From assembly GCA_905233845.1 (NCBI GenBank), contig CAJOFH010000013.1, forward strand, positions 30,531-94,530: a stretch of DNA of 64,000 nucleotides, read 5' to 3'. Below are positions 5,052 to 11,885 of the stretch, in pieces (the stretch's first letter is position 1; each line of letters begins with the position of its first letter). The notes under the pieces were generated by a model. The model did not search any database. It was not told the origin of the DNA and worked only from the letters and a program-made list of their open reading frames with translations. Origin of the DNA: an uncultured Muribaculaceae bacterium. GTDB taxonomy: Bacteria > Bacteroidota > Bacteroidia > Bacteroidales > Muribaculaceae. The translations under genes were made by a program, and so were the position numbers.

Positions 5052-5690
5052 ATGGCACAACACAACACCCTCGATGTTTGCCGTGTCGATTTGTTCACGG
5101 CAGAAGATGAATTGAGGCAACGATACCCCGAAGTTATCGTTGCCCGTGTCCTTCGTATTCGTGACGAATACAACTGGTTTCTCGCCAACCCTGACGCTAA
5201 AGACCGTCAGTTTGTCGAGCAAGCGGTCAGCCGTCACGGCATTAGCAAGGTGCTGGCGTATTCCGACCTTGCCATTGTCAAGGCTCTGCTGCCGCACCTC
5301 GCACAAGCGAGCCGTGACTTCCACCGCTATCGCTATAATGAAATGATCCTTGAAACATTCCAGATGGCGAAGAAACGCAAGGACACGAAGACGATGGAGA
5401 AAGCTGCTTCGTCTTATGCCAAGTTCAACAGAGTTGACCTCGAAGACGAGCAAGCAGTGCCGTATGACCTTATCGTGGTGCAGCCGTTCACGGCAACGGC
5501 AGACCCCACAGTTCTCGGCATTAAGCCCATACCGAACATTCAAGAGCGTATAAATGCGCTCATTAAGAAGTATCAAGCCGAGAACATCGACATCGAGGAC
5601 ATCGAGTTCGAGGAACCCGACCTCGAAATGAAATCCCTTATGCCGAACTATGACGATGAAGAAACCGCAGGAGAAGAAAATATACTTTAA
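5052..5690 (+). CDS. phage hypothetical protein, terminase-adjacent
   Basis: ORF 212 aa in operon. Confidence 0.55.
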   Translation: MAQHNTLDVCRVDLFTAEDELRQRYPEVIVARVLRIRDEYNWFLANPDAKDRQFVEQAVSRHGISKVLAYSDLAIVKALLPHLAQASRDFHRYRYNEMILETFQMAKKRKDTKTMEKAASSYAKFNRVDLEDEQAVPYDLIVVQPFTATADPTVLGIKPIPNIQERINALIKKYQAENIDIEDIEFEEPDLEMKSLMPNYDDEETAGEENIL

Positions 5691-7290
5691 TGCGCCGCAA
5701 CGCTTGACGCAGCTTATTGGTGCCAATACCACCGTAATTGTCGCTGGCCGTCGAACAGGCAAGACGGACAGCATCGCCTCGCCATTCGTGTTGCGCAATA
5801 TGCAACGAATGCCTGGCAGCACTGGCGGCATTGTCGTGCCGACCTACAAGCACGGACTGACAAACACCATTCCGGGCTTGCTGGCGGCGTGGAAACGATG
5901 GGGATTTCTCAATGGCGTGCATTATGTCATCGGGCGAAAACCGCCCAAGTCATTCGGCAAGCCCATCATCGAGCCTGCCGAATATGAGCACGTCATTACT
6001 TTCTACAACGGTTCTTGCGCCATCATCATTTCGCAAGACCGACCGGGCAGTTCCAATTCGCTGACACTTTCGTGGCTGCTCATCGACGAGGCAAAGTTCA
6101 TAGACTATGAACGCCTCAAAGATGAAACACTCCCTGCCAACGGCGGCATTAAATCGTATTTCGGACATCATTCGTTCAACCACTCCGTGATGATCCTATC
6201 CGATATGCCGCAGACGCAGAAAGGCTCGTGGTTTCTCCACTACCAAGAAAAGATGGACGTTGACCTTATCGAGACGATTAAGGGCACCGTCTATGAGATT
6301 TGGCACGTCAAGCAACGCATACGCGAGCTTGTCGCTGGTTACAAGTACGTGCCTGATTCTCTCTACGCCTATCTGCGTCGGCTCGACCGCAATCTGAATA
6401 GAATGCGGTCGGTTGCAGTTTACTACAAGGAATATTCCTCGATAGAAAACCTGCAACTGCTGGGCGAGAGCTACATCAAGCAAATGAAACGAGACCTCAC
6501 GCCAAAGACTTTCCAGACCTCAATTCTTTGCCAACGAATAGGAATCGCTAAAGACGGCTTCTATTCGTCGATGCGCGAAGCCCATAAATACAACGCCAGC
6601 GACTTCGATTATCTCGACTCGCTTGGCTATGACTTCAACGAAAGTCAGTTGGACTGCCGAGCCGACAAGGACTTGAATCCTTTCGCGCCCATTTGCATCG
6701 GAATGGACTACAACGCCAACATCAACTGGATTGTTGCCGGTCAGCCGCACGGCAGACGGCTCAATGTCATCAAGTCCTTTTACACCAAGTTTGAGCGCAA
6801 GATACCTGCGCTCATTGATGATTTCTGTCGATACTATGCCCACCACCAATGCAAGGTCGTGGTTTACTACTACGACAGTACCGCTCTCGGCGGCAACTAT
6901 GCCGTCAACGAGCAGGACTTCCATTGGGTGGTGTGCCACGAGTTTGAGCGGCACGGCTGGCAAGTCGAGGACATCAACCTCGGCAATCCCATGCGGCACG
7001 ATGAGAAATACTTGCTCATCAACCAGGGCTTTGCTGGAAAGCAACGCCTGATGCCGATGTTCAACCGCCAAAACAACGATGACCTCATTTTGGCTGTTCA
7101 GACCGCCGGGGTTGTGCGAGGTCGCAACGGCTTCCGCAAGGACAAAGGCGGTGAAAAGTTGGCAGAAACCGAAGAAGATCTGCTCCAACACCGCACCGAC
7201 GGCACGGACGCTTTCGACACCCTATACATAGGCTGTGAAAAGTTTCCGTACCGTGATACCTACGGCATAAATTCGAGCGGTGTTCTCTAA
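5650..7290 (+). CDS. terminase large subunit
   Basis: Walker A 'VAGRRTGKTDS', Walker B 'LLIDEAKFI', C-terminal 'GMDYNANINW' nuclease-type motif. Confidence 0.8.
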   Translation: MTMKKPQEKKIYFNAPQRLTQLIGANTTVIVAGRRTGKTDSIASPFVLRNMQRMPGSTGGIVVPTYKHGLTNTIPGLLAAWKRWGFLNGVHYVIGRKPPKSFGKPIIEPAEYEHVITFYNGSCAIIISQDRPGSSNSLTLSWLLIDEAKFIDYERLKDETLPANGGIKSYFGHHSFNHSVMILSDMPQTQKGSWFLHYQEKMDVDLIETIKGTVYEIWHVKQRIRELVAGYKYVPDSLYAYLRRLDRNLNRMRSVAVYYKEYSSIENLQLLGESYIKQMKRDLTPKTFQTSILCQRIGIAKDGFYSSMREAHKYNASDFDYLDSLGYDFNESQLDCRADKDLNPFAPICIGMDYNANINWIVAGQPHGRRLNVIKSFYTKFERKIPALIDDFCRYYAHHQCKVVVYYYDSTALGGNYAVNEQDFHWVVCHEFERHGWQVEDINLGNPMRHDEKYLLINQGFAGKQRLMPMFNRQNNDDLILAVQTAGVVRGRNGFRKDKGGEKLAETEEDLLQHRTDGTDAFDTLYIGCEKFPYRDTYGINSSGVL

Positions 7291-7391: not shown

Positions 7392-7429
7392 GTGTGCATG
7401 TTTTTTGCACACCCTCAATAGTATATTTG
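7392..7429 (+). promoter_or_regulatory. promoter A: GTGTGCA-N7-TGCACAC palindrome plus TATATTTG -7 box
   Basis: Perfect 7-bp inverted repeat 9 nt upstream of a TAnnTTTG box; same layout at 8526-8562. Confidence 0.6.
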
Positions 7430-7494: not shown

Positions 7495-8244
7495 ATGGAA
7501 CAGACACTTAAATTCACACCCCAGCCTTATGCAACAATGATTGCTAAAGGCTTGCTGAATGCAGTACGAACACGACTGCATTTCGAAAAAGCTCAACGCA
7601 TTTTCATCTATGCGGGTGAGCCAGTAACGAACCCTGCAATGCCCATCGAGTGGCAGCAGGAAGTAATCAACCATCAGCTGTTCGGCAACCTTGCCGAAAC
7701 AAAGGACTTGCCCACCAACGAGCTTGTAGGCTTCGTAGATGTGCTGTGTCCTGCCGACCCCAAGTCGAGTGTGTGGACGCTTGACGAAGAACCTGCCTAC
7801 ATCGTAGGCAACGCCCACGCCTTCGACAACCCTCTTGTCTTTCTCGAAAACGAGCATGGCAATCTTCGTGGCATCGAGGACTTCATCCCCTCGCACGTGT
7901 TCAAACCAGTCAATCCGTTCCTGCTTGACTATGACGAAGAACTTGTGCTGCCCGTCAACCGACGCTTGTTCCACATGGCAGCTATGCGCCAAACGCTGAA
8001 GTTCGAACTTACCGGCTTACTTGCAGTCACCGTTCTTGATGACAATGGCGAACTCAAACCGTTCACAAAATTCACTGTCATCAACAACCGTCGTGCTAAA
8101 TCTTTCCTCTTTGAGGGAGAGATTTGTCACGAACTCACTGCCGATGAAACCGACTTGCAACGCTACCCAAGCGTCACTTCTGCAGATGGTACGACAACGA
8201 GAGCGCAGCTTGTGCTCTCGTGCCGTTATGCGCTCACCGACTGA
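7495..8244 (+). CDS. ASCH-domain-like protein
   Basis: Start ATGGAACAG; 'LKFTPQPYATMIAKGL', 'FIYAGEP', 'GFVDVL' pattern resembles ASCH fold. Confidence 0.5.
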   Translation: MEQTLKFTPQPYATMIAKGLLNAVRTRLHFEKAQRIFIYAGEPVTNPAMPIEWQQEVINHQLFGNLAETKDLPTNELVGFVDVLCPADPKSSVWTLDEEPAYIVGNAHAFDNPLVFLENEHGNLRGIEDFIPSHVFKPVNPFLLDYDEELVLPVNRRLFHMAAMRQTLKFELTGLLAVTVLDDNGELKPFTKFTVINNRRAKSFLFEGEICHELTADETDLQRYPSVTSADGTTTRAQLVLSCRYALTD

Positions 8245-8291
8245 TTTTTCCTACAAAATCACTCCGTTTAGGAAAAATTGTCGTACCTTTG
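8244..8291 (+). promoter_or_regulatory. 10-bp inverted repeat (ATTTTTCCTA/TAGGAAAAAT) followed by TACCTTTG -7 box
   Basis: IR arms 8244-8253/8269-8278; box 8284-8291; no clear -33 TTTG. Confidence 0.5.
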
Positions 8292-8295
8292 CAAT

Positions 8296-8499
8296 GCCGA
8301 AAACATCGTTTTTGACATTACATAGGTTGTTCTAAAGAACATTATGCTTCTCGATGATTTGAAAACGTAGGAACTTTTCATTGATGAACGACGAAAGCAT
8401 AGTGGTTTCTCTCGCATATTGCGTGAGCCACTTTATGCACTCGTTCATCTGGTTATCCTACGACCATCAAATCTAGTGCTGTGGTTCACGCATTTTTTT
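8296..8499 (+). ncRNA. candidate structured RNA with ~118-nt compound stem and terminator
   Basis: Nested pairs GATTTGA/TCAAATC, CGTAGGA/TCCTACG, GATGAACGA/TCGTTCATC, GCAT-AGTGG/CCACT-ATGC, CGCA/TGCG; terminator 8477-8499. Confidence 0.6.
8477..8499 (+). terminator. rho-independent terminator (TGC-GTG hairpin + T7)
   Basis: TGC t GTG gtt CAC GCA TTTTTTT. Confidence 0.45.
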
Positions 8500-8525
8500 A
8501 GCTCCGTTAAGTTTTTTCTATTTTA

Positions 8526-8562
8526 GTGTGCAAGATTTTTGCTCACCTGTGATATACCTTTG
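8526..8562 (+). promoter_or_regulatory. promoter B: GTGTGCA-N7-TGCTCAC operator plus TACCTTTG
   Basis: Near-identical to promoter A; second inverted repeat CTCACC/GGTGAG spans the -7 box. Confidence 0.6.
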
Positions 8563-8625: not shown

Positions 8626-9603
8626 ATGGCTGATAATATCCTCAATCCGTGGGCTATAGATAGCAACGGGAAAATAATAAGCATTGAACATGCTCGCAAA
8701 GGAGAAGTGTATCATTGCCCTGTTTGCAAGGAACTGCTTTCCTATTGCAAGAAAGGCGATGGCCCACGCGCTCGCATTGACCATTTCAAGCACCAATCCA
8801 ATACAAATTGCCATGGTGGCGGTGAATCTGAAATCCACAGGATGGCAAAGGAGAAAGTTTATGAGATACTGCGGCACTTTTTAGACAAACACTATGAGTT
8901 GCCCATTACATGGACTTGTCCTGATTGTGGAATTGACATGAAGGCAAACTTGCTCAGACGAGCTAAAGATGTGCGCATGGAACACGACCTCGATGCGGCG
9001 CGTCCTGACATTGACTTGCTCGATGACAAGGGTAACACAATCATTGCCATTGAGATTGTATTTACCCACGATGTCGAAGCAAGCACACTTCGTTTTTATG
9101 ACAACAACAATATTGTGCTTGTGCGAATCGTCGTGAGATCAGCTGAAGACTGCAACGACATGATGCACAAACTACAATTCCCAGACAGTTGCAATCTTTG
9201 CTTTAACGAAGATTGTAAGCGAGGCGAAAAGATGCAGGTGTATAGGAAGATAATTCCAGTAGTTGACAACAATAGAATTGTTGGTCTTGCTGTTGCTTTA
9301 GATAACCCATTCGAGGAAGAAATCATTAAAGGTTTACCATTCAACGAACAAGACAAGCGTACTGCAATAGCCATAGCCAAAGAGAAATGGCCAAAACATC
9401 AACTCTATTTTAGCGAAGTCCCGGCTTATCCTTATGCGTTGTTAAAGCCCATTCAAACAATGAGTTTTCAATCTAGGATGAGGGCAACACCAAGTCCCTA
9501 CCATACCGGTCTTGAAGAAGTTATGCGCCAGCGGCAAGTAAAAGCTATCCGTAGAAACTATGCAATAAGAGCAAAAAAAACAGGTGGCAAACGTCGTCGT
9601 TAG
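8626..9603 (+). CDS. competence protein CoiA-like nuclease
   Basis: N-terminal 'YHCPVCKELL...DHFKH', 'RPDIDLLDDKGNTIIAIEIVFTHDVE' nuclease-like core. Confidence 0.7.
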   Translation: MADNILNPWAIDSNGKIISIEHARKGEVYHCPVCKELLSYCKKGDGPRARIDHFKHQSNTNCHGGGESEIHRMAKEKVYEILRHFLDKHYELPITWTCPDCGIDMKANLLRRAKDVRMEHDLDAARPDIDLLDDKGNTIIAIEIVFTHDVEASTLRFYDNNNIVLVRIVVRSAEDCNDMMHKLQFPDSCNLCFNEDCKRGEKMQVYRKIIPVVDNNRIVGLAVALDNPFEEEIIKGLPFNEQDKRTAIAIAKEKWPKHQLYFSEVPAYPYALLKPIQTMSFQSRMRATPSPYHTGLEEVMRQRQVKAIRRNYAIRAKKTGGKRRR

Positions 9604-10689: not shown

Positions 10690-11169
10690 ATGACTATTGA
10701 CGCATTTGAACTGATAGCTCCACAGCTGAGGGCTGCTGCCGTAAACAAAGCAACAGCAATGGGCCTCGACTATGACGAGTCGCAAGACATCGCCCAGGAG
10801 ACGCTGTTGCGGAGTCGGCTCTACAATCCTGAGGGTTTTGCCTCAGTGATTGCACACCGATTATCGCTGAACCACTTGCGTCGCAAGCCTCCGCTTCCGT
10901 TAGAGAGCGAGGAGTCCGCAAGTCAGACCAACCCATCGCCGCTGGACGAAATCATACAGCAAGAGGACGTACAGTGGCTCGAACAGAAAATCAAGGAGCT
11001 GCCATCCACCCTGCACGCAGTGTTGAAAATGCGCCAGGATGAGCGATACTCCAACGAGCAGATTGCAACTCTGCTCGGAATAAAGGAAGACAGCGTTAGC
11101 ACATTGCTTGCAAGGGCACGAAGGCAACTTATGGAACAAATCAAGCAACTACGCAGAGAACAACAATGA
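10690..11169 (+). CDS. ECF-type RNA polymerase sigma factor
   Basis: 'DYDESQDIAQETLLR' region 2 and 'YSNEQIATLLGIKEDSVSTLLARARRQLM' region 4. Confidence 0.85.
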   Translation: MTIDAFELIAPQLRAAAVNKATAMGLDYDESQDIAQETLLRSRLYNPEGFASVIAHRLSLNHLRRKPPLPLESEESASQTNPSPLDEIIQQEDVQWLEQKIKELPSTLHAVLKMRQDERYSNEQIATLLGIKEDSVSTLLARARRQLMEQIKQLRREQQ

Positions 11170-11885
11170 AACAATATTCACGACATCAGATAGAGGCTTT
11201 GCTCGGCAAATTCATGGCGGGCAAGACCACCATTGAGGAGGAGTCGTTGCTGAGCAAATATTTCAACACGACCCACGATGTGCCTGCCGAATGGGAAGAT
11301 TATCAGGCTTTGTTCGGCTATATCGACCGTGGACTGGAAGGAGACCTGCTTCCCGAAACATCCTCACCATCACATCGCAAATGGCTTTGGTGGGTTCCTG
11401 CTGCTGCAGCGGCAATCGTGGCACTCGTTTTCGGCTTCAAGGTTTTAAACAAACCAGAAACCACACAGCCTATTTCATCGCCGATAATCACTCAAAAGGC
11501 AGATCCAAAAGATGAGTCGATTGACCAGAAGACCGGCAATCCTCATGTGGCTGAGAACGAATCAGCTGACAAAAACATTTCTGCACCTAATAAAGCAGAC
11601 GTCGTTGCAATCAAGCAGCAATCGAGAAAGCAAAAGCATTCTTTGACTGTCTCACATCATGAGGCGCAGACCAATCTGATTGCACAAAACGAACGGCTTT
11701 TGCAAGAGAACGGGCGGCTGCAACGAGAACTTGAAGAACTGAACCAGCGAGCCATCATCATCGACATGGAAGCCATGGGCTACCAAGCCGTGAAGGACGA
11801 GAACGGCTCAATAATTTACGTGGATATGCAACAAGAGATAGATAATCAATTCAACAACCAATCAACTAACATACCTGGATTATGA
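11166..11885 (+). CDS. membrane anti-sigma-like protein
   Basis: Overlaps sigma gene; one TM segment 'WLWWVPAAAAAIVALVFGF'; coiled coil. Confidence 0.6.
   Translation: MKQYSRHQIEALLGKFMAGKTTIEEESLLSKYFNTTHDVPAEWEDYQALFGYIDRGLEGDLLPETSSPSHRKWLWWVPAAAAAIVALVFGFKVLNKPETTQPISSPIITQKADPKDESIDQKTGNPHVAENESADKNISAPNKADVVAIKQQSRKQKHSLTVSHHEAQTNLIAQNERLLQENGRLQRELEELNQRAIIIDMEAMGYQAVKDENGSIIYVDMQQEIDNQFNNQSTNIPGL

Follow-up and report, generated by a model that had tools for sequence, protein, structure and literature searches.

The window (the 64,000-nucleotide stretch of contig CAJOFH010000013.1, from an uncultured Muribaculaceae bacterium, that was analysed here) carries the end of a prophage's structural block, followed on the forward strand by two protein genes with an RNA element between them. 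The features of this locus, in window coordinates, are:

5650..7290, + strand: terminase large subunit gene, which closes the prophage's conserved structural block (phrog_2, E 1.2e-9)
7422..7429, + strand: −7 box TATATTTG ahead of the ASCH-like gene (sequence)
7495..8244, + strand: gene for a predicted ASCH-fold protein of 249 aa, the conserved upstream partner of the prophage-version RNA
8284..8291, + strand: −7 promoter box TACCTTTG of the RNA (sequence)
8296..8499, + strand: the RNA, about 204 nt, with its 3′ end in U7 (promoter box, U7, family conservation)
8335..8499, + strand: conserved core, matched by covariance model R1 with 133.0 bits
8492..8499, + strand: A followed by the U7 tract (8493-8499), which completes the terminator with hairpin II (sequence)
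8555..8562, + strand: −7 box TACCTTTG ahead of the CoiA-like gene (sequence)
8626..9603, + strand: gene for a CoiA-like protein of 325 aa, this prophage's variable cargo

Positions 8296-8499 constitute a promoter-to-terminator RNA of about 200 nt; its transcription start, for which there is no measurement, is inferred to lie near 8296-8299. An earlier sequence-only reading had described a compact RNA preceded by TACCTTTG and standing between two genes with promoters of their own. Indeed, the Bacteroidota signature TAnnTTTG precedes the upstream gene (7422-7429), the RNA (8284-8291) and the downstream gene (8555-8562). That reading also found no long open reading frame in the RNA, and none fits as coding sequence across it; the overlapping ORFs are short or mechanical. 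The minimum free energy (MFE) of 8284-8505 is −66.3 kcal/mol, against a mean of −44.4 (sd 4.0) in 200 dinucleotide shuffles, none of which reaches it (z = −5.5). The MFE fold contains the compound stem, and all five nested stems listed earlier are present: 8356-8362:8467-8473 (7 bp), 8366-8372:8456-8462 (7 bp), 8383-8391:8441-8449 (9 bp), 8397-8405:8428-8438 (9 bp, with a bulge) and 8413-8416:8420-8423 (4 bp). The terminator that had been placed at 8477-8499 survived in part: U7 is there, but the local hairpin, at 8477-8492, reaches only about −2.7 to −4.2 kcal/mol and is weak. What forms the strong stem ahead of U7 is instead a long-range pairing of 8421-8431 with 8481-8491 (−29.5 kcal/mol), and this pairing is incompatible with the compound stem's inner part.

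Homologues of the RNA and its two folds

BLASTN relatives of the RNA were observed in 25 of 149 related genomes, and the alignment of 28 of them displayed a conserved core. A covariance model (R1), one of the checks that the sequence-only reading had proposed, was built from 25 sequences. It detects four copies in the own genome. Of 199 relatives, 122 have one or more, with up to about 13 per genome at a looser threshold; of 290 good genomes from the same order, 90 (in 58 of 178 genera) have homologues, with up to 9 copies per genome at E ≤ 1e-5. The search filters make all copy counts lower bounds. Weak, single, divergent copies are carried by 19 genomes from other orders of the class, and the eight that were inspected are genuine. 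Named carriers include Bacteroides gallinarum, B. rodentium, Phocaeicola sartorii, Butyricimonas synergistica and Xylanibacter rarus. The copies fall into three subfamilies with a common architecture: S1, which includes the window copy, S2-like, mainly from Alistipes/Rikenellaceae, and S3, mainly from Prevotella. The S2 set is impure, with some S1-type members, and its numbers are approximate. TAnnTTTG lies upstream of 77 of the 83 non-redundant copies, mostly about 47-53 nt ahead of the core.

Two copies (L264:5984-6148 and L077:3573-3729) are degenerate or truncated, the one in L264 lying upstream of DUF6088 and AbiEii-type toxin-antitoxin genes. Putative hits, by sequence pattern, also came from a MAG of Staphylococcus (L157) and from Sphingobacterium (L168); one in Flavihumibacter (L084) was set aside, having no covariance-model match. 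That the RNA is specific to phages was rejected, since in the searches carried out matches in only 10 IMG/VR contigs and one phage record stand against at least 120 matching genome contigs.

Two sets of helices can be drawn in the window copy:

8356..8473, + strand: state II, compound stem, with PC 8356-8362:8467-8473, PD 8366-8372:8456-8462 and PE 8383-8391:8441-8449 (covariation, cognate test)
8397..8438, + strand: state II, hairpin B, with 8397-8405:8428-8438 and 8409-8416:8420-8427; contains the 5′ strand of the terminator stem
8340..8404, + strand: state I, hairpin I, P1, CATTATGC 8340-8347 with GCATAGTG 8397-8404 (canonical pairing, cognate test)
8360-8365:8375-8380, + strand: state I, hairpin I, inner helix P2, TGAAAA with TTTTCA
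8421..8491, + strand: state I, hairpin II, AI, 11 bp, GCGTGAGCCAC 8421-8431 with GTGGTTCACGC 8481-8491 (−29.5 kcal/mol)
8437-8441:8475-8479, + strand: state I, hairpin II, AT, GCACT with AGTGC

The window coordinates listed here, those of PD included, were taken directly from the sequence. The two states exclude each other, as hairpin B overlaps P1 at 8397-8404 and AI at 8421-8431, and PC overlaps P2 at 8360-8362. In the window copy they are near-equal in energy (−49.9 kcal/mol for state I and −50.4 for state II, computed without pseudoknots), and only state I places a strong stem, hairpin II, ahead of U7. MFE folds of the growing chain pass from hairpin I (formed by 8404) through hairpin B to the compound stem; this is a thermodynamic series and not a kinetic simulation. 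Other copies mostly favour state II, by a median of 7 kcal/mol in stand-alone copies and 12 kcal/mol in leaders, and state II is the MFE fold in nearly all copies.

Both sets of helices are supported by compensatory changes beyond those in controls, which makes this a structured-RNA family. Covariation amongst the 83 non-redundant S1 copies is strongest in the compound stem (z 29.6 for PE, 22.3 for PC and 16.4 for PD). In the same copies, columns 67 and 152 each covary with column 9, and columns 46 and 136 each with column 26; such joint changes are those of a strand with two alternative partners. When cognate strands were compared with non-cognate ones, the helices of state I (z of −12.3 for P1, −6.3 for P2, −4.7 for AI and −6.2 for AT) and those of state II (−26.6 for PC, −13.5 for PD, −28.4 for PE and −8.9 for hairpin B) stood apart from six control pairings, whose z lay between −2.4 and +2.0. 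Cognate-pair scores can be inflated by relatedness among the sequences, and since related sequences share history these z values are not probabilities. Canonical pairing across the helices is 81-97%, against about 37-49% when strands are slid: 87% for P1 and 93% for P2 (43-49% slid), and family-wide 92% for AI and 81% for AT (38-41% slid). The outer extension of hairpin B is 88% canonical and has compensatory changes, and the helices of state I covary along their full length.

An alignment-free test gave the same picture, with helices of both states again covarying in S1 (65 sequences), S2-like (26) and S3 (11), and with controls near zero or positive; hairpin B in the S1 set was the single weak test (z −1.2). 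In two distant copies (L247 and L248) the PD sequence has been swapped for a different complementary pair while the internal loop is still conserved. The variable helices PC and PE fit within one molecule only (−7.4 to −9.3 kcal/mol for cognate against −2.6 to −2.9 for non-cognate strands), and pairing in trans between copies via their loops is therefore disfavoured.

Taken together, homologues, compensatory changes and a −7 box at a fixed position uphold the earlier view of a structured, conserved RNA with an independent promoter, and a lack of conserved structure, which would have refuted it, does not apply. The compound stem had been taken as the structure; it is conserved, but it is only one of two conserved folds. 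With mutually exclusive conserved helices (AI against hairpin B, P1 against outer hairpin B) and, in the window, a terminator stem followed by U7, the RNA is attenuator- or riboswitch-like in its structure.

Chromosomal leaders and the prophage version

The placement of copies outside prophages was observed to be that of a leader. A co-directional ORF comes next in 56 of 68 such copies, as opposed to 8 of 62 on the opposite, control side (p 3e-16), and its ATG lies a median of 46 nt past the core (interquartile range 42-52). These 56 copies thus lie in 5′ UTRs; this is not established for the window, where the next gene has its own box. Proteins encoded by the following ORFs are signal peptide-like in 41 of 56 cases, compared with 77 of 270 background ORFs (p 1e-9), as called by a simple hydrophobicity heuristic. 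Only 3 of 70 leaders have a TAnnTTTG box separating RNA from gene, whereas such a box is present in 7 of 13 stand-alone copies (the window and six others). Many leaders have an extra hairpin shortly ahead of the start codon, with a GGACUG-type loop complementary to a CAGUCC strand (z −8.5 for this pairing), and many lack a U-tract (CACGCUUCGUGG). Stand-alone forms with long U-tracts occur in other orders as well (L244, L247). The earlier picture of an RNA that sits alone fits the window copy, but not most of its relatives, which are mRNA leaders.

The genes downstream of leaders are too diverse to suggest any common ligand or pathway. A small secreted protein family with a FKGIPVDGSKTEMIQKLKAKG motif recurs after the leader in many species (loci L003, L065, L066, L076, L085, L095, L119, L123, L125 and L128); the one member that was scanned has no Pfam family above cut-off. 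At two loci from another order of the class (L249, L251), the RNA is followed by tiny related proteins of 68-73 aa (..TIMLKNGDIIHFTP.. in L249). The leader version is also found in plasmid records: on pBUN1 of Bacteroides uniformis (L260) it lies between a MobV relaxase gene and blaMUN-1, with the RNA (L260:5050-5221) about 46 nt ahead of the latter, and a second copy precedes a DUF4433 gene (L261).

In the prophage version, the RNA and the ASCH-like gene form a pair; in one prophage family it lies after the terminase gene and ahead of interchangeable cargo. The sequence-only reading had called the upstream neighbour ASCH-like. Although the window protein (7495-8244) has no Pfam hit itself, a homologue passes the Pfam ASCH cut-off. 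The assignment is further borne out by an AlphaFold model (pLDDT 91) whose best PDB folds are the human TRIP4 ASCH domain (probability 1.00, E 2.2e-6), so that an ASCH fold is predicted. Among 199 related genomes, 25 have the gene, and these all belong to the same genus; its protein has no match among 50,697 records of isolated phages. The RNA adjoins it in 24 of 30 homologous loci, and at least one of the exceptions (L195) stops at a contig edge. From this genomic association only, and without binding data, we infer that the ASCH-fold protein is the best candidate for an RNA-binding factor in the prophage version. The CoiA-like neighbour that had been emphasised before does lie downstream (Pfam CoiA_N, E 8e-6, slightly under cut-off), but it belongs to the variable cargo and the conserved partner is the upstream gene.

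Cargo in other members includes type I restriction (L223, L227, L232, L234 and L236), BREX (L235), PARIS-like AriA/AriB (L228), MADS (L242) and a DNA methyltransferase (L237), and CoiA-like proteins are found in the window and in L223; some of these assignments rest on sequence alone. The region after the terminase is a cargo hotspot in otherwise similar prophages (L223-L242; 7495-10292 in the window). One RNA copy is flanked by two ASCH-like genes (L242:8658-10565, L240), the second of which passes the Pfam ASCH cut-off. Just past the prophage cargo, window positions 10690-11885 hold a sigma-factor gene (sigma-70 region 4) and then an uncharacterised gene, both probably chromosomal.

The proposed switch and its rivals

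Our preferred reading, in which we have even confidence, is that of a bistable regulatory RNA, a leader or attenuator whose prophage version yields an sRNA that is perhaps bound by the ASCH protein. The RNA probably works as an on/off switch ahead of genes for exported proteins or mobile-DNA cargo, a function that is inferred. The transcript from its own promoter would fold as two long hairpins (state I) with complementary apical regions, and pairing of these regions would rearrange it into state II, with its single long compound stem and hairpin B. The intrinsic terminator of the window copy is hairpin II, a part of state I, and in state II hairpin B sequesters the 5′ strand of this terminator. 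As state II traps this strand, state I would release an sRNA of about 200 nt and state II would favour read-through to the cargo; this terminator logic derives from the sequence of the window copy. In most chromosomal copies the element serves as a 5′ leader to a single downstream gene, and a further hairpin is often present. This placement, and the ability of the further hairpin's loop to pair with the strand freed in state II, make control of read-through or translation more likely there. Since many leaders lack the U-tract, termination cannot be the outcome in every one of them, and those without it probably work through translation or stability. The RNA of the prophage version would be bound by the ASCH-fold protein; the role of this protein, the regulatory outcome and the signal are all inferences.

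The promoter box of the RNA begins about 40 nt past the stop codon of the ASCH-like gene, and the RNA could merely be the 3′ UTR or terminator of that gene. This reading, named beforehand as one that would refute an independent RNA, is barely tenable: the box is conserved and is retained in copies without the upstream gene, and most copies have no ASCH-like gene upstream. It is also very improbable that the near-palindrome is a mobile DNA element, a cassette end or recombination site travelling with cargo, with an incidental RNA structure. Such an element would suit the varied downstream genes and the location at backbone/cargo junctions of prophages and mobilizable elements. Against it, P1 and AI contain conserved G-U pairs that are meaningful only in plus-strand RNA and so fix the strand, the position of the promoter box is fixed, the orientation relative to the gene is single, and no matching boundary was noticed past the gene.

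The mutually exclusive helices would also suit a metabolite riboswitch whose aptamer comprises the compound stem with its conserved A-rich/ACC internal loop and whose expression platform is AI/hairpin B. The loop is kept even where PD is fully replaced (L247, L248). We nevertheless think it quite unlikely, for no pathway is common to the downstream genes, as many as about 13 copies in one genome ahead of unrelated genes would be unusual, and no Rfam riboswitch matches. A further possibility, unlikely but one that we take seriously, is a constitutive sRNA or scaffold in which state II is the sole working form, acting in trans or by binding protein (the ASCH-like one in prophages), and state I is a co-transcriptional intermediate. 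The promoter and U7 of stand-alone copies, the forms with long U-tracts in other orders, the conserved ASCH-fold partner and the prevalence of state II as MFE fold all speak for it. Yet the majority of copies are leaders with a fixed spacing to the start codon, covariation along the full length of state I exceeds what a transient intermediate needs, and the intramolecular fit of PC and PE argues against trans pairing with other copies via loops.

The preferred reading, the bistable regulatory RNA, has limits of its own. As state II is favoured in most other copies, state I may be a mere folding intermediate, and the second promoter box before the downstream gene in 7 of 13 stand-alone copies means that the cargo need not depend on the RNA. 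All of the evidence is computational, without expression, probing or reporter data.

Known RNAs and significance

No Rfam family matches the RNA. At Rfam 15 gathering scores the window, 18 homologous loci and eight distant loci gave tRNA and RNase P hits only, a strong member (L124) had no match at E ≤ 1, and hits of the window below threshold were at chance level and mostly eukaryotic. Like the window RNA, attenuators and riboswitch platforms are promoter-bearing 5′ leaders in which helices exclude each other and one of them makes up an intrinsic terminator stem. Unlike them, the Bacteroidales RNA has no known aptamer and no leader peptide, its downstream genes are unrelated, it would switch by the merging of two hairpin loops into a long stem, and it also stands alone on prophages. 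The tetQ leader of the conjugative transposon CTnDOT, which acts by translational attenuation through a leader peptide and tetracycline-stalled ribosomes, is likewise structured and stands ahead of a cargo gene on a Bacteroides mobile element, but it has a leader-peptide ORF and the window RNA has none. A bistable leader RNA is thus a kind already known, while this family is outside Rfam 15.

Among RNAs reported from these bacteria, HMP2_4078 is a 109-bp palindromic candidate from human microbiomes, assigned to Bacteroidetes and located near D5_N and phage-integrase domains (Fremin and Bhatt 2021, PMC8040213). In size and setting it is close to the compound stem, and the parts of the main text available to us describe no second fold, leader role or partner. 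It may represent an earlier sighting of the compound stem, with no function assigned, although no sequence comparison supports this. FopS/GibS and BatR are Bacteroides thetaiotaomicron sRNAs that act on mRNAs in trans, FopS being multicopy, about 65-70 nt long and equipped with a single-stranded seed, and BatR measuring 154 nt (PMC11697453, PMC10861873). The FopS consensus has been deposited in Rfam, according to PMC11697453; the only Rfam family that the window matches is tRNA. They share promoter type and intrinsic terminators with the window RNA. With about 200 nt and two states it does not belong to the FopS/GibS family (about 65-70 nt, R1 seed, single terminator hairpin; PMC11697453), and neither FopS, BatR nor the 2010 motif list contains it as far as they are described.

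Only tentatively do we extend the proposal to a switch found throughout the Bacteroidia that works by intramolecular loop-loop refolding, controls exported proteins in the cell and has been co-opted by prophages and mobilizable elements, along with an RNA-binding ASCH-fold protein, as a standard module that controls interchangeable cargo for defence and resistance. If the proposal is true, a common multicopy RNA switch of dominant gut bacteria has so far gone unnamed, and the RNA would mark a class of exported-protein genes and provide a sequence handle for locating the defence and resistance genes that prophages and mobilizable elements carry as cargo. Its hundreds of copies would be a naturally replicated system in which to study bistable RNA folding, and what bacterial ASCH-fold proteins bind would become directly testable.
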